Assembly (NCBI RefSeq): GCF_015482765.1
Contig: NZ_JADMLB010000027.1
Span: 1-61,119, forward strand
Direction of reading: 5' to 3'
Length of the DNA stretch: 61,119 bases
From: Halodesulfovibrio sp.
Lineage (GTDB): Bacteria; Desulfobacterota; Desulfovibrionia; Desulfovibrionales; Desulfovibrionaceae
Below the pieces are notes generated by a model. It ran no database searches, was not told the origin of the DNA, and saw only the letters and a program-made list of their open reading frames with translations. This document shows, piece by piece, positions 42,232-48,081 of the stretch. The position numbers and the translations under genes are program-made. Within the stretch, counting starts at the first letter, position 1, and each line of letters begins with the position of its first letter.

Positions 42232-43269
42232 TTATTCGTCACACATTTTTTCTATATCATCTTCGGCAGGTTTTGCGCATTTGATGGAACGATTACGGGT
42301 AGGGGAAACGAGACGTTTAAACACAAACATCTCTACATCTTTTCCTTCAAGCGCTTCGATAGGAATTTCTGCACGCGCCAATGCTTTGTGTCCACCAGCA
42401 GAGCCGACATCGTTAAACTGGCAATAGGCAAAATGCCCAAGATCACGGTTTACACCGTCACCACGGAAAATAATGACTGCTTTATCCTGATAGACGCCGC
42501 ATACCGCCACCCAGCGCATTTCATGCACGCGCATGAAGAAATCTGCAATAACAACAAGAGCGTCAGGGTTCTCAACCATTCCGACAAAGGAGTAGCGACC
42601 GGAACCGACCTTATGCATCCCTGTGATGGCTCTGGAGAAATACTCCAGCCAGTCTGAATGCATTTCACTTCGTGCTATACGTGACAAAAGTGGATGGTTC
42701 GCAAATTTGCTCAGTACCTTAAAAGCACGGATATCAACTTCGTTGAAGTTTCTCTCAAAGTCGTTGGTATCTGTTTTGATGCCGTACATAAGGGCCGTTG
42801 CGAGCATTTTACCCGGTCTGATTTTCAGCTGGTACAGGTACTCCGTAAGAATTGTGCTGTTTGAACCATAGCCCGGTAAAATTTCCTGAAATTCTGAAGT
42901 AACAGGGTAATCTTCATTCAACGGGTGATGGTCGATAACAATGGAGTAGTCCAATTCACTGAACAGCGGGTGATGGTGCGGCTGTGAGTCGACAATTGCG
43001 AATCTGTCGTATTGCGCTGAAACCTGCGGAGTAAGTTTGACCATTGGAATGCGGAGCAAACGAACCATAGCAAGGTTGTCCGGACGGGTAATTTCGTTCA
43101 CACGGGCAATATCCACATCCGCGACCCGATGGCTCATGATGCGTTTAAGCGCAAGTGCAGAGCCCATTGCATCCGGATCGGCATTAATGGTGATAAGCCA
43201 GCGTTCATTACGTGAGAACATTCCCAGAAGCTGGTCAATCTGTGGTTTTACATTACGAAAGTACGACAT
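42232..43269 (-). CDS. DHH/DHHA1-family phosphoesterase
   Basis: A 345-residue DHH-fold phosphoesterase. N-terminal DHH domain: ITINADPDAMGSALAL (metal-binding Asp pair), FAIVDSQPHHHP, and the DHH motif itself IDHHPLNEDYP; then GIKTDTNDF. A C-terminal DHHA1 domain includes GRYSFVGMVENPDALVVIADFF and VGSAGGHKALARAEIP (the GGGH-type substrate loop). Relatives are nanoRNases, pAp phosphatases and c-di-AMP hydrolases. It starts one base after cobU stops and is therefore translationally coupled to cobU and cbiR, which raises the possibility of a cobamide-related substrate. RBS AAAGG. Confidence 0.87.
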   Translation of the reverse strand: MSYFRNVKPQIDQLLGMFSRNERWLITINADPDAMGSALALKRIMSHRVADVDIARVNEITRPDNLAMVRLLRIPMVKLTPQVSAQYDRFAIVDSQPHHHPLFSELDYSIVIDHHPLNEDYPVTSEFQEILPGYGSNSTILTEYLYQLKIRPGKMLATALMYGIKTDTNDFERNFNEVDIRAFKVLSKFANHPLLSRIARSEMHSDWLEYFSRAITGMHKVGSGRYSFVGMVENPDALVVIADFFMRVHEMRWVAVCGVYQDKAVIIFRGDGVNRDLGHFAYCQFNDVGSAGGHKALARAEIPIEALEGKDVEMFVFKRLVSPTRNRSIKCAKPAEDDIEKMCDE

Positions 43270-43270
43270 G

Positions 43271-43777
43271 TTACGCCTTTTTTACATAGAGCGGGATTCC
43301 CGCAATCATGAGGCAGACCTCATCACTCACGGCTGCAACAGCCTGATTCAGAGTGCCTAATCTGCGAATAAATTGACGAACCTGAGAACTTGCCGCGATT
43401 GGGCCGAGTCCTGCCTCACAAGAAACAATAGTAACCTGAACATCATCAGGAACCAATGAAAGGCTGTGGAGCAACGCATCCTGTGCCTGCTGCCACTGGT
43501 CTCCACAAGAGAATACCCAAAAGTCTAAACTGTCGATAAGAATAGACTGATACTCCAGTATGGACTTTTCCAGAAGGCGGGGCAATTCTATTCCTGTTTC
43601 TTTAACAGGAATTTCCGGTTTTCTTGCTAAGCGGTGATCCAGAATCTGGCGACCGAAAGAAAAATCCTGCGCCTGACCTGTTGCCAGTAACACGGAAGGA
43701 GAGTTTCCCTCGTACAAGCGTTGCAATCCAAAATCGGATTTGCCTGACTTGTCTCCCCCCAGAATAAGTCGGATCAT
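43271..43777 (-). CDS. cobU: CobU, adenosylcobinamide kinase/guanylyltransferase
   Basis: A 168-residue bifunctional enzyme that phosphorylates adenosylcobinamide and converts the product to AdoCbi-GDP, the activated form that receives the lower ligand. P-loop GGDKSGKS (8-15; the usual form is GGxRSGKS), then LLATGQAQD, ILDHRLARKP (conserved His-Arg), DSLDFW and the late VTIVSCEAGLGPIAAS. Its ATG overlaps the cbiR stop codon (TAATG). No other corrin genes lie in this window, consistent with salvage or remodelling. Confidence 0.9.
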   Translation of the reverse strand: MIRLILGGDKSGKSDFGLQRLYEGNSPSVLLATGQAQDFSFGRQILDHRLARKPEIPVKETGIELPRLLEKSILEYQSILIDSLDFWVFSCGDQWQQAQDALLHSLSLVPDDVQVTIVSCEAGLGPIAASSQVRQFIRRLGTLNQAVAAVSDEVCLMIAGIPLYVKKA

Positions 43778-44592
43778 TACTCTTGTCCTTCCATCAGAAG
43801 CAGTTCTTCAACAATCGGAATTGTTGATTCGATATGCTTCCAGTTAAACAGCTCGTACACAAGCGTGCAGTCCTTACCGCAAGCTTGTAATACCTTACGC
43901 GCTATCCGCTTTCCGGATGCATCAAGGTTCTCCAGACTTACATGCTTACTGCGCCCCTTCTGCGTTGTTATATCCGCGGGTGCGTTTATGTGAATCATGC
44001 GAAGTCGGGTAAAAATATCAGTACGATCAAGAAGTGCAGTATGCCCGTATGCAATGATATGCCCTATGTCAATGCATACACCAAGTCCTGAATCTGTAAT
44101 AACGGATGCAAGATCAACAAGATCTGCACCTTCAATATTCTCAATTAGTAAATCATTACAGTCAAATCCATGACTCTTCCATGCCCGCGCAACTGCCGTA
44201 AGTTTCTGTTGAGCCGCTTCTACAGAAAATGCATTTTCTCCCTGCGTAACCGGAGGATGTAACACCGCTTTTCGCACACCGAGAAAATGAACTTTTTCCA
44301 TTAATTGCAGAATAATCTGCGCTGTAACATCTGCGTTTTCCCATGGAAGATCGAGCGGCAAATGCACATGGTAGCTCAAATTTAATGTTGAGAGTTGGCT
44401 CGGTAAATCTTCCTCACCATATTCAAGGCACGATTGTGTTTCAAAGAACAATAGCGCAACTTCGTCTACCTTTCCTTCAAGAAACACACAGTTTTCATAG
44501 ACGGTTCCTGCCATAACCCATGACGGGGCGGCGCTCCTGTATGATTGAAGAGACTGAGGGTTACGATTATTTTGATTTTGGTTCTGCTGCAT
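43777..44592 (-). CDS. cbiR: CbiR-like cobamide-remodelling phosphodiesterase (xylose isomerase-like TIM barrel)
   Basis: A 271-residue AP-endonuclease-2/sugar-isomerase fold protein. APSWVMAGTVYENCVFLEGKV near the start, KVDEVALLFFETQ, HVHLPLDLPW (metal His), KAVLHPP, LLIENIEG (metal Glu), VCIDIGH and HINAPA match the metal-binding pattern. The N-terminus and proximity to cobU fit CbiR, the enzyme first described in Akkermansia that cuts the phosphoester of cobamides so that the lower ligand can be changed. This name rests on recall of the family plus context; otherwise it is a sugar-phosphate isomerase/epimerase-like protein. It overlaps cobU by one base and follows the EndoQ-UvrD gene by 25 bp. 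Confidence 0.78.
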   Translation of the reverse strand: MQQNQNQNNRNPQSLQSYRSAAPSWVMAGTVYENCVFLEGKVDEVALLFFETQSCLEYGEEDLPSQLSTLNLSYHVHLPLDLPWENADVTAQIILQLMEKVHFLGVRKAVLHPPVTQGENAFSVEAAQQKLTAVARAWKSHGFDCNDLLIENIEGADLVDLASVITDSGLGVCIDIGHIIAYGHTALLDRTDIFTRLRMIHINAPADITTQKGRSKHVSLENLDASGKRIARKVLQACGKDCTLVYELFNWKHIESTIPIVEELLLMEGQE

Positions 44593-44617: not shown

Positions 44618-47600
44618 TTACAACAAACTCAATTGTGTTTCTTTGTGTTTTTTCTTTGCCTTAAGTGCAGAATGCATCAGGCCGTCATCCGGCAAATCTC
44701 TCAAAAAACGGGACGGTGAAAGATGCACAGTGTGACCATAAATCATACGTTTTCCGGAATGGCTGAGGAATAACAGCTGCTCTGCACGGGTCATTGCCAC
44801 ATAGAGCAGGCGGCGTTCTTCTGCTATATCAAACTGATCCGGAGCTGTGGACGCTGTTCCTGTTAACGTGTTCATACCGGAATAAGGCATAATGCCATCT
44901 TCAAGTGCCGGTAAGAACACGGCTTTGAACTCAAGTCCTTTTGAAGCATGCATGGACATGATCTGTACTTTTTCACTCTTCTGACGCACCAGATCAAGCT
45001 CAGTCTGTAAATTAATCCAGTTCAGTAAACCCGCCCATCCTTTGTGCTCTTTATAGTGAGTTACAAGCTGTTTGAATGCTGTGGACTTCCAGAAAAGACG
45101 ATCAAACGGCGGAAGATCTTCCATATACACAGCGATGCCTTGGGGTCCTTTAGCAAGAACAGCATCAGGACAATTAATCTGCTCTTCGCCTTCTTCACTG
45201 GAAATCCCCACAAATCGACCGGCAGCAGCCAAAATAAGCTCGATACGCGGATCAACCCAAAATGCTTCCTGTTCCGGCACAGCACATGGGATGCCCAGTC
45301 GATTAAGTGTCTGACTGATGACTGGAATGAGCGCTTTGAAGCGGACAAGAACAGCAATATCTCCCGGAGAAAGTTCGCCTCCGAGAAGCCGCTCCTGCCT
45401 GTTATCTTGTAACGAGTGGCTGGTTTGTCCCAGCAGACCGCGCACCTGCTCGCCTATCCACGATGCTTCAGCTTCCGATGTTGGTGCTTCGAACATCCTT
45501 ACTTCAGCTTCTACTGATTTCTTTGCTTCAATAGGTGCTGCTTCACGAGCAGGCAGCATAAGCGTGCTTGCGTAGTCCACTATCTGCTGTGATGAGCGAT
45601 AGTTTTCTGAAAGTTGAATTGTCTTAAGGGAAGGAAGCTCTTTCGCAAGATACTCCTGAACGCCTCCATGAGCGCCCCTGAATCCATAAATCGACTGATC
45701 CGGATCGCCGATTCCGAAAAATCCCTGCCCGTTCTGGTCATCCTGTGAAACAAGTTCACGAACAACCGCCAGCTGAAGCGGAGATAAGTCCTGAATTTCA
45801 TCAACAAGGACATGCGTCCAAGGACGAACAAAAACATTATTGCGCAGTGATTCAAGCCAGAACTCAAGCAGATCGGTATAGTCTGCCAGATTCCATGAAT
45901 TCTTCAGACCTGAATAGTTATCGTATGCTTGCTGCTCTTCTTCAGGGCACGGTTCCATACGTTCGCGACACAGTGAAATGACTTCCCATGATCTTTTGCA
46001 CTGCTGTTTGCTCGCCTCTGCGTTGGCTTCTGCAAACACACGTTTTGATCCTTCTTCAGAAAGCAAGGTCGGTGCGTCAGAATATGAGTTCTGCCAGTAT
46101 TCAAACGCAAGACCATGAAGAGTGTCCGCACGCGGAATAGACAATTCATTCTGGATAGAGTCTGCAAGGCGCGTTGTCAGCTCCTGTGCGGCACGACGAG
46201 TAAAGGTTAACGCCAGAATTTGACGCGCCTTAACGCCGGAGCCGAGCAGGTGCTCAATTCTGCCGATCAACGTACGGGTTTTCCCTGTTCCGGGTCCTGC
46301 CATAACAAGTACAGGGTCAGGAGACGAGGTAATCGCCTGCTGTTGGGCATCGTTATACGCTATTTCTTCCGGCTGTTCCTGCAACTGCTGAACTGCGGAA
46401 TCAAAAACAGGCATGATGGATGCTTCTTCTTGCGGAGTCAGTCCGGTTACTTTTTCCGGAATATCGATCAATGACTTGCCGTGCTTGAACTCGTTACGTT
46501 CCTTTTGTGAGAACACGCGAACCACGCCGTATTCGCCATCAAATCCAGGCTGGCGCAGCACTTCACCTTTACGCATTCTGCTGACTGCTTCTGCTAGGAT
46601 AGGGTGAACTTTCTTAATGTCCTCCTCAGGAACCTCTTTAAGAATCGCCATTTCTGAACCAAGCTTCTGGATGGTCTCAGAATAAAGCGTCATAACTTTC
46701 TTTGTCTTCGGCCCCACGCCAAGCACTTCGCTCATAAGCTCAGGAAGCGGAATCAATGAACTGTAATCACCGGCTTTAGTCGGTTGCTTAGGAGTGTCTC
46801 TATCTGCAAGAGTTAAGATCCTGTTGAGCACTCCCACGGTTAACGGCTTGCCACACACAGGGCAAATTCCGTCACGGGTCAAGGTCTCTCTCGGCTCCAT
46901 AACAACATTACACTTTCGATGACCGTCAAGGTGGTATTTGCCCTCTTCAGGGAAGAACTCCATCGTTCCTAAAAATTTATGACCAAGACCTTCACCGCGC
47001 AGACTGCGATACATGCCTTCAAAAGAGATATCACCGGCAAACAGGTTACACTCGCGTCCAAGCTTGTCACCGGAATGTGCATCGGAGTTTGAAACCAATG
47101 CAAAACGATCGAGAGCGCTCCAAAGCCAGTTCATTTCCGGATCGGAAGAAAGACCGGTTTCAAGCGCAAAAATTTCTGAAGTGTACTCGCCGTAACATTC
47201 TTCAATGGTATCAAAACCGGACTTTGAGCCGAACAGAGAGAACCACGGTGTCCAGATATGAGCAGGAATCAAAAATGCTAAGGGATGGGTATCTAGCACG
47301 AGATCAAGGATGTCCCGTGAGTCCATCCCAAGAATAGGACGGCCGTCTGATGTGATGTTACCGACTTCGCCGAGTCGGTTGCTGAATTTTCGGGCAGCCT
47401 CAAAGTTCGGCATGTAGACAAGGTTATGAACCTTCCTCACCTTGCCGCCACGTTTATAAATGGAGCTGATTTCGCCCTGAAGCATAAACAGAGAGCGTCC
47501 GTGCATTGGAGCATCACCGAACCGCGGTATTTCTTTCCCGAGATCCGATGTGTCTTTCAATCTGTACAATCCACTTTGACTGTCCTCTTCAAGCTGGTCT

Positions 47601-47761
47601 TCCAGCTCATCAAGCCATTCTGGATGTGTGCAGTCACCCGTCCCCAGAACATCAAGCCCTTTTACCTCTGCCCATGCTGCCAGATGGCGCGGGGTTAATT
47701 TCTTACTTGTGGCACGGGAAAATCTGGAGTGAATATGCAAATCGGCGCGAAACTGTTTCAT
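44618..47761 (-). CDS. EndoQ-like PHP endonuclease fused to a UvrD/Rep-type helicase
   Basis: A 1047-residue fusion. Residues 1-420 match endonuclease Q, a PHP nuclease that nicks 5' of deaminated bases: metal ligands H9 and H11 (DLHIH), D43 (GTGD), E97, H112, H168 and D227/H229 (SNSDAH); a zinc-finger-like part with C284 (HRKC) and C300/C303 (CPVCGK); a helix-hairpin-helix-like VLGVGPKTKK; and GFDGEYGVVRV near 410. Residues 465-1040 form an SF1A helicase: AGPGTGKT (488-495), LTFTRRAAQEL, VDEIQDLS, GDPDQSIYGFRG, SMHASKGLEF and YVAMTRA. All active residues appear intact, so both halves should work: nicking, then unwinding. Damaged-DNA repair is inferred. A 62-residue gene lies 7 bp upstream. 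Confidence 0.87.
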   Translation of the reverse strand: MKQFRADLHIHSRFSRATSKKLTPRHLAAWAEVKGLDVLGTGDCTHPEWLDELEDQLEEDSQSGLYRLKDTSDLGKEIPRFGDAPMHGRSLFMLQGEISSIYKRGGKVRKVHNLVYMPNFEAARKFSNRLGEVGNITSDGRPILGMDSRDILDLVLDTHPLAFLIPAHIWTPWFSLFGSKSGFDTIEECYGEYTSEIFALETGLSSDPEMNWLWSALDRFALVSNSDAHSGDKLGRECNLFAGDISFEGMYRSLRGEGLGHKFLGTMEFFPEEGKYHLDGHRKCNVVMEPRETLTRDGICPVCGKPLTVGVLNRILTLADRDTPKQPTKAGDYSSLIPLPELMSEVLGVGPKTKKVMTLYSETIQKLGSEMAILKEVPEEDIKKVHPILAEAVSRMRKGEVLRQPGFDGEYGVVRVFSQKERNEFKHGKSLIDIPEKVTGLTPQEEASIMPVFDSAVQQLQEQPEEIAYNDAQQQAITSSPDPVLVMAGPGTGKTRTLIGRIEHLLGSGVKARQILALTFTRRAAQELTTRLADSIQNELSIPRADTLHGLAFEYWQNSYSDAPTLLSEEGSKRVFAEANAEASKQQCKRSWEVISLCRERMEPCPEEEQQAYDNYSGLKNSWNLADYTDLLEFWLESLRNNVFVRPWTHVLVDEIQDLSPLQLAVVRELVSQDDQNGQGFFGIGDPDQSIYGFRGAHGGVQEYLAKELPSLKTIQLSENYRSSQQIVDYASTLMLPAREAAPIEAKKSVEAEVRMFEAPTSEAEASWIGEQVRGLLGQTSHSLQDNRQERLLGGELSPGDIAVLVRFKALIPVISQTLNRLGIPCAVPEQEAFWVDPRIELILAAAGRFVGISSEEGEEQINCPDAVLAKGPQGIAVYMEDLPPFDRLFWKSTAFKQLVTHYKEHKGWAGLLNWINLQTELDLVRQKSEKVQIMSMHASKGLEFKAVFLPALEDGIMPYSGMNTLTGTASTAPDQFDIAEERRLLYVAMTRAEQLLFLSHSGKRMIYGHTVHLSPSRFLRDLPDDGLMHSALKAKKKHKETQLSLL

Positions 47762-47768
47762 GGAGCAA

Positions 47769-47957
47769 TTATCCTAGCTTAAAGCCGTTGGCTGCGTAAC
47801 GCAGACAGTGAAATACATCTTTCCGTTCAATACCTGTATCAGAGGAATACTCCCTAGACAATTGCGTTACGATTTCGATTTTTATGCTCTTAAAATGGTG
47901 CAACCACTGCTCAAGCTCTCTTGTCATCAGCTCTTGAGGCAGTTGGTGTTTGTTCAC
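47769..47957 (-). CDS. Unknown 62-residue protein before the EndoQ-UvrD fusion
   Basis: A charged, helical protein starting MNKHQLPQELMTRELEQWLHH and ending CLRYAANGFKLG. GTG start with AAGG seven bases upstream; an internal ATG at 47927 is an alternative. Its stop codon is 7 bp before the large fusion gene, on the same strand, so it is probably the first gene of that operon. No motif was recognised. It could be a small partner or a regulator of the nuclease-helicase. Confidence 0.5.
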   Translation of the reverse strand: MNKHQLPQELMTRELEQWLHHFKSIKIEIVTQLSREYSSDTGIERKDVFHCLRYAANGFKLG

Positions 47958-48046: not shown

Positions 48047-48081
48047 AAAAAAAACGGCTGCCCTATCAGGGACAGCCGTTT
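48047..48081 (-). terminator. Terminator of the glnHPQ operon
   Basis: AAACGGCTG/CAGCCGTTT with CCCT/AGGG inside, followed on the minus strand by T-rich sequence. Confidence 0.8.

Follow-up and report, generated by a model that had tools for sequence, protein, structure and literature searches.

Endonuclease Q (EndoQ), represented by PfuEndoQ of P. furiosus (PDB 5zb8 and 7k30), TkoEndoQ, MacEndoQ and the Bacillus pumilus enzyme, cuts DNA on the 5' side of a lesion and leaves a 3'-OH and a 5'-phosphate (available sections of PMC4357722). The published accounts, in their available sections, place EndoQ in archaea and a few bacteria and leave the helicase that follows incision unnamed: the EndoQ-plus-EndoV branch of Fig. 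10 in PMC4357722 has the strand removed by an unnamed helicase, and the accessible part of the 2021 review PMC8438529 likewise includes a DNA helicase, again unnamed, in EndoQ repair. The subject of this analysis is a gene of Halodesulfovibrio sp. (Desulfovibrionaceae) that joins a predicted EndoQ-type nuclease to a UvrD/Rep/PcrA-like helicase of superfamily 1A (SF1A) in one chain. It lies on the minus strand of a 61,119-nt stretch (assembly GCF_015482765.1, contig NZ_JADMLB010000027.1, positions 1-61,119), referred to here as the window.

With EndoQ the fusion shares the fold, the metal ligands, the lesion-pocket residues and a C-terminal clamp motif, which is a PIP box in archaea and a beta-clamp consensus in bacterial homologues (PMC4858679, available sections). 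It differs from EndoQ by the added helicase, by the position of the clamp motif at the helicase end, and by a zinc ribbon of H-C-C-C rather than C-C-C-C composition. Like UvrD, Rep and PcrA, it has all SF1A motifs, and these helicases are its best Foldseek matches; unlike them, it has an N-terminal nuclease, shorter motif spacings, a terminal clamp motif and equivalog scores below cut-off. UVDE-type alternative excision repair also relies on a single nick 5' of the lesion (PMC4357722, in part). The fusion has a different nuclease and would act on different lesions. We know of no helicase-fused UVDE. In Gabija, a defence system, the TOPRIM/OLD nuclease GajA and the UvrD-like helicase GajB are two proteins; the likeness lies in a nuclease working with a UvrD-like helicase, whereas the fusion has a PHP nuclease, a single chain and the standing of a core family gene. 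Both halves, and a bacterial clamp motif, are already known. No description of an EndoQ-helicase fusion was found in the accessible portions of open-access PMC; a Desulfovibrio EndoQ homologue is named in the available sections of PMC4357722, and Fig. 9A of that paper (domain structures and lengths) may draw a long Desulfovibrio protein.

The fusion protein and its EndoQ-type half

The single 1047-residue chain given in a preliminary description of this DNA is confirmed as an uninterrupted open reading frame (ORF), with the following parts.

44618..47761, minus strand: EndoQ-UvrD fusion gene, uninterrupted ORF of 1047 aa with an ATG start at 47761, assigned by homology and an AlphaFold2 model
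46511..47746, minus strand: predicted EndoQ-type nuclease module, residues 6-417, with PHP metal site, zinc ribbon and C-terminal region
46373..46474, minus strand: linker, residues 430-463, predicted to be disordered (predicted local distance difference test, pLDDT, under 50 in the AlphaFold2 model)
44672..46357, minus strand: SF1A UvrD/Rep/PcrA-like helicase module, residues 469-1030, assigned by homology, motifs and Foldseek, with shortened motif I-II and IV-V spacing (1B/2B regions)
44621..44635, minus strand: C-terminal QLSLL, residues 1043-1047, of beta-clamp-binding type by motif count in fusions versus control ORFs

Conservation was read from an alignment of 100 fusion proteins, comprising the window protein, the best 80 loci of a GTDB scan and 19 loci of the same family. 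The AlphaFold2 model, built on an alignment of 60 of these 100, has a mean pLDDT of 86.2 and a predicted template modelling score (pTM) of 0.78. Searched whole with Foldseek, it finds UvrD, PcrA and Rep as best matches (UvrD at E = 7.6e-38), and it superposes on the PfuEndoQ chains of 5zb8 with template modelling (TM) scores of 0.88-0.90, normalised by target. Modelling thus recovers both the EndoQ and the UvrD folds, and the earlier reading of the chain as EndoQ plus UvrD/Rep is upheld by sequence, fold and active-site conservation.

The N-terminal half matches PfuEndoQ at E = 4.1e-55 along the length of the module, with 133 of 375 aligned positions identical, or about 35%. All eight PHP metal ligands named at the outset are present: H9, H11, D43, E97, H112, H168, D227 and H229 align with PfuEndoQ H8, H10, D42, E76, H84, H139, D193 and H195, and across the alignment H9 is kept in 99 of the 100 fusions and the other seven in every one. 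In PfuEndoQ numbering, the catalytic-site residues E76, H84 and H139 are conserved in 99-100 of the 100, and the lesion-pocket residues H139, G169 and S171 are invariant. Pocket residues of PfuEndoQ are reported to exclude thymine and adenine, the residue roles being those given in the accessible part of PMC8307549. In the window protein the zinc ribbon is formed by H281, C284, C300 and C303, the CPVCGK stretch beginning at residue 300. The best sequence and fold matches are to EndoQ and the pocket residues are those of EndoQ; a grouping with other PHP families is not borne out. By sequence, modelled fold and active-site conservation, the N-terminal half is an EndoQ-type nuclease.

The helicase half and the clamp motif

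The C-terminal half contains the full SF1A set described for it, motifs I to VI lying at residues 489-997 with cores conserved across the 100 fusions. Pfam assigns it PF00580 (148.6 bits) and PF13361 (121.6 bits). The NCBIfam equivalog models for PcrA, Rep and UvrD give 216.5, 203 and 199.1 bits against cut-offs of 911.2, 951.45 and 1144.45; since none is reached, the fused helicase is classed by sequence as a separate UvrD-like branch. A helicase tree of 52 of the 100 fusions, three split-pair helicases and three canonical ones (four further fetched loci had no usable ORF) has the fused helicases falling together to one side of a branch with 98% support. The window protein has 166 residues between motifs I and II, compared with 196 in the host's own UvrD and 182-194 in the three split-pair helicases; between motifs IV and V it has 218, compared with 254 and 277-287, respectively. 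The median IV-V spacing in fused helicases is 211 (87 of 97 scorable), consistent with a trimmed 2B region. The 2B region of Rep is autoinhibitory, and the fused motor may be more active.

Three of the best 80 fusions run off their contigs near the C-terminus, leaving 97 of the 100 with a natural stop. Within their final 12 residues, 77 of these 97 have the pattern Q[LIM]x[LF][FLIM], versus none of 383 neighbouring ORFs with lengths of 250 aa or more. We take it to be the bacterial beta-clamp motif, of the QL[SD]LF-type consensus. A stricter form ending in LF is found in 45 of the 97; QLSLL of the window protein fits the loose form only. Archaeal EndoQ binds PCNA via its C-terminus, and a beta-clamp consensus has been noted in the C-terminal region of bacterial EndoQ homologues, Desulfovibrio included (2016 paper, PMC4858679, available sections). 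By analogy, the tail of the fusion should dock on the beta sliding clamp. Among 20 loci fetched as candidate standalone EndoQ, seven EndoQs (L105-L107, L113, L116, L118 and L120) have a QLxLF clamp-type ending, and related C-terminal forms are seen on others, among them L108-L112, L114 and L115.

Distribution and split forms

The GTDB scan returned at least 584 relatives. The best 80 are all fusions, a choice that favours fusions and gives no measure of the fused share. By record title they carry 14 phylum labels, with nine loci unassigned; some labels are doubtful, two such loci (L030 and L061) sitting among other groups in the EndoQ tree. Cultured isolates with the fusion include Geobacter argillaceus, Actinopolyspora mortivallis and Chelativorans intermedius. 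The fusion is widespread in bacteria and not local to the host. Fused and unfused forms were sorted by frame size, at least 850 aa counting as fused and 380-600 aa as unfused or contig-cut. A phylum sample has EndoQ in 159 of 247 genomes; among the 150 matches listed, 60 fall in frames of 850 aa or more, 87 in the 380-600 aa class and 3 in neither. In the host family, where presence was scored with the TIGR00375 profile at E <= 1e-10, EndoQ is found in 187 of 199 genomes (147 of the 149 of high quality), and 141 of the 150 matches listed belong to frames of 850 aa or longer.

The EndoQ domain had no match in 72,556 plasmid and 50,697 phage records at the sensitivity used, nor did viral contigs scanned with six exact-peptide patterns, which can detect close relatives only. 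The 50 matches listed from a search of BFVD by fold comprise helicases, viral polyproteins and proteins without a name, their TM-scores covering the helicase half at best. A phage, plasmid or viral origin was rejected on the absence of matches in the plasmid, phage and viral-contig scans.

In 3 of the 20 candidate standalone loci, a UvrD-family gene lies directly downstream of EndoQ: the two frames overlap by 8 nt in L113, are separated by the EndoQ stop codon only in L120, and stand about 200 nt apart in L118. Both proteins of each pair end in the clamp motif. Three further loci (L112, L116 and L124) were set aside, their contigs ending too soon past EndoQ, and the other 14 gave no UvrD match in the stretch fetched; a large ORF adjoining the unfused EndoQ of L114 is an unrelated PreP-type peptidase. 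A tree of 126 EndoQ domains, made by quick search and with the archaeal row on a very long branch, shows unfused forms branching first, then a mixed zone of split-pair and unfused forms, then a mostly fused clade. This clade, with a Shimodaira-Hasegawa-like approximate likelihood ratio test (SH-aLRT) support of 98, consists of 101 rows that are fused and 9 that are unfused, among which L124 is cut by a contig end.

A proposed nick-and-unwind route and its alternatives

The fusion is probably a clamp-tethered alternative excision-repair enzyme, one that nicks 5' of a lesion and displaces the damaged strand. A one-protein nick-and-unwind route of this kind, as first proposed from the sequence, is the best inference. 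The parts, their conservation and the operon link are observed; the activities in the following scheme are inferred from them. The EndoQ module would flip a deaminated base (uracil, hypoxanthine or xanthine) or an apurinic/apyrimidinic (AP) site into its pocket and cut the phosphodiester bond 5' of the lesion, leaving, if its chemistry is that of PfuEndoQ, a 3'-OH and a 5'-phosphate. The flexible linker would then bring the UvrD-like motor to the nick, where it may load. UvrD moves with 3'->5' polarity. The lesion would stand at the start of the downstream strand, which is exactly the strand that a motor tracking 3'->5' along its intact partner would displace and peel back from the nick. Meanwhile the QLSLL-type tail, if the analogy between EndoQ and PCNA holds, would keep the protein on the beta sliding clamp, a tether that would let polymerase, flap nuclease and ligase fill and seal the gap.

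Several observations weigh against this scheme. His takes the place of Cys as the first zinc ligand in 99 of the 100 fusions, the remaining three Cys being retained. The protein matches TIGR00375, an NCBIfam hypothetical equivalog, at 182.4 bits, short of the curated cut-off of 326.6, and so does not come under that model; the cut-off is reached by none of the 247 phylum genomes versus 2 of 14 control genomes. The missed cut-off, the changed zinc ligand and the limited identity to PfuEndoQ might suggest that the PHP half is no longer a lesion nuclease and persists as a structural or other phosphoesterase module. Such a loss of function is very improbable: across divergent phyla, 99-100 of the 100 fusions retain the metal ligands and pocket residues, as a dead domain would not, and each of the 24 bacterial EndoQ rows examined that are unfused or split has the same His for the first zinc Cys. 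On the helicase side, unwinding could be affected by the shortening of the 1B/2B regions. The second branch of Fig. 10 in PMC4357722, in the sections available, relies on strand displacement by a polymerase and has no helicase. The loose clamp motif is absent from 20 of the 97 fusions, most of which have degenerate forms and two of which (L021 and L033) are clearly divergent. EndoQ without a helicase is nested among the fused forms (genus g39, G019, G033, G267, G347 and G269), which suggests later loss of the helicase part and therefore that the helicase is sometimes dispensable. Uracil-DNA glycosylase (UDG) is present in 45 of 50 fusion-bearing genomes, mostly of other groups; the host's own UDG, whose weak score had raised a doubt that was rejected, is a true Ung, and a UDG-superfamily gene is found in 10 of 10 sampled host-genus genomes. 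The fusion is therefore not generally the sole uracil enzyme, and a general replacement of UDG by it was rejected outside the host family.

The persistence of helicase-free EndoQ in some lineages also speaks for a different division of labour, in which EndoQ nicks the lesion, the helicase mainly clears long tracts or protein roadblocks at forks, and the two halves are joined for shared recruitment to the clamp. Each protein of the three split pairs has its own clamp motif, and co-recruitment alone could link them; the spread of the fused form across many phyla suggests instead a gain from one-to-one hand-off, and this division of labour is judged unlikely. Less probable by far is a Gabija-type anti-phage nuclease-helicase directed against modified or deaminated invader DNA. 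The helicase half does match the PADLOC GajB models (best 3.4e-62, 208.8 bits), and a possible antiviral role of bacterial EndoQ beside repair is raised in the accessible part of the review PMC8307549. That GajB score does not exceed the 216.5 bits of NCBIfam PcrA, and the nuclease is of the PHP rather than the TOPRIM/OLD type. Nearly every genome of the family has the gene, its neighbours are conserved in Desulfovibrionales, and scans of the plasmid, phage and viral-contig collections, at the sensitivity used, gave no match to the EndoQ part. A GajA TOPRIM/OLD partner is not among the three downstream neighbours scanned (CbiR, CobU-like and DHH), no search directed at GajA having been made. 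Identity as a defence system was rejected, the similarity being at the level of the helicase only.

UDG and EndoV in the host family

Of the 199 host-family genomes, 52 encode a UDG-superfamily protein (41 of the 149 of high quality) and 2 an EndoV (2 of 149); among the 14 control genomes, the UDG model matches 13 and the EndoV model 6. In the phylum sample, which has nine host-family genomes among its 247, UDG is found in 220. By subtraction, 108 high-quality family genomes have no recognised UDG. All 108 have an EndoQ match, counted whether or not the gene is intact, because EndoQ was scored absent from just two of the 149: G086, a UDG carrier, and G152, which has the gene in fragments spread over two contigs. 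The EndoQ-by-UDG table for the family, as scored (47, 140, 5 and 7), is not significant (Fisher p 0.31); p reaches 0.043 only when, post hoc, G039 and G125 are recoded as broken and G152 is counted as present, with kinship uncorrected.

Genus g39 (L125, L126, L127, L133 and L144) has EndoQ without helicase or clamp tail. This EndoQ is truncated in G039 and G125 and was not found in G086, and exactly these three of the six sampled genomes have UDG; G067, G101 and G113 have an intact unfused EndoQ and no UDG. The exchange, three versus three with two incomplete assemblies and shared ancestry (two-sided Fisher 0.10), is only suggestive.

The upstream leader

The preliminary description also gave the fusion a 62-residue upstream partner. 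The frame exists, 7 nt upstream, but it is not conserved in the five nearest same-genus loci.

47769..47957, minus strand: 62-codon GTG ORF, 7 nt upstream of the fusion, judged to be non-coding 5' leader
47831..47864, minus strand: DNA block CAATTGTCTAGGGAGTATTCCTCTGATACAGGTA, 34 bp, non-coding, inside the 62-codon ORF and largely conserved in 6 same-genus leaders
48052..48081, minus strand: terminator-like hairpin, with the ABC transporter genes on its upstream side and the fusion leader on the other

NCBIfam and Pfam searches with the 62-aa product gave no family match. The fusion proteins of the five loci are 87-92% identical; in four of them (L085, L086, L087 and L088, at 88-92%) the 62-codon region aligns only partially and has stop codons, and in the fifth (L089) it gives no match at E <= 10. 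Because of these stops or lack of similarity, the ORF is judged non-coding, a chance frame in 5' leader DNA by its sequence and not a conserved gene. The accessory partner was rejected on the same grounds and on the absence of a family match, and the ORF would have no part in the proposed repair route. A promoter in the leader was considered and rejected, since a scan for the sigma-70 consensus gave none, the conserved 34-bp block included.

Downstream neighbours

Genes for CbiR, a CobU-like protein and a DHH protein follow the fusion on the minus strand, at 42232-44592.

43777-44592, minus strand: CbiR, a TIM barrel, NCBIfam NF041277 at 176.7 bits (cut-off 105)
42232-43269, minus strand: DHH protein, 345 aa, 51-59% identical across ten loci and below the cut-offs of the NCBIfam models matched

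In the flanks of 103 loci, many of them short, CbiR is found 27 times, CobU 25 and DHH 14. Two Desulfohalobiaceae loci (L008 and L010) have the DHH gene about 100 nt past the fusion and have neither CbiR nor CobU. The product of 43777-44592 is assigned by sequence to cobamide remodelling; it may be misread as endonuclease IV because of an AP_endonuc_2 Pfam match beside a repair gene. The repair gene thus stands beside genes for cobamide remodelling. The DHH model, of middling quality (pLDDT 74.3, Foldseek TM at most 0.47 among the matches listed), is nearest to the phosphodiesterases TM1595, GdpP, DhhP and NrnA, RecJ-like entries ranking lower. The DHH protein could degrade excised oligonucleotides; flap nuclease is another candidate role.

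Implications

EndoQ is far commoner in bacteria than the available sections of the published accounts state, and the fusion gives a hint of the type of helicase at work after EndoQ incision. An enzyme able by itself both to nick at deaminated bases and to displace the strand could also serve as a laboratory tool. Species with EndoQ-UvrD but without UDG or EndoV should rely on the fusion for low C-to-T and A-to-G mutation. It is conceivable, though we hold the view only tentatively, that a self-contained enzyme, with incision, strand displacement and a clamp tether all in one polypeptide, has assumed the repair of deaminated bases in much of Desulfovibrionaceae. If so, one protein would guard the family against both uracil and hypoxanthine, because the UDG-less genomes have EndoQ and EndoV is nearly absent from the family.

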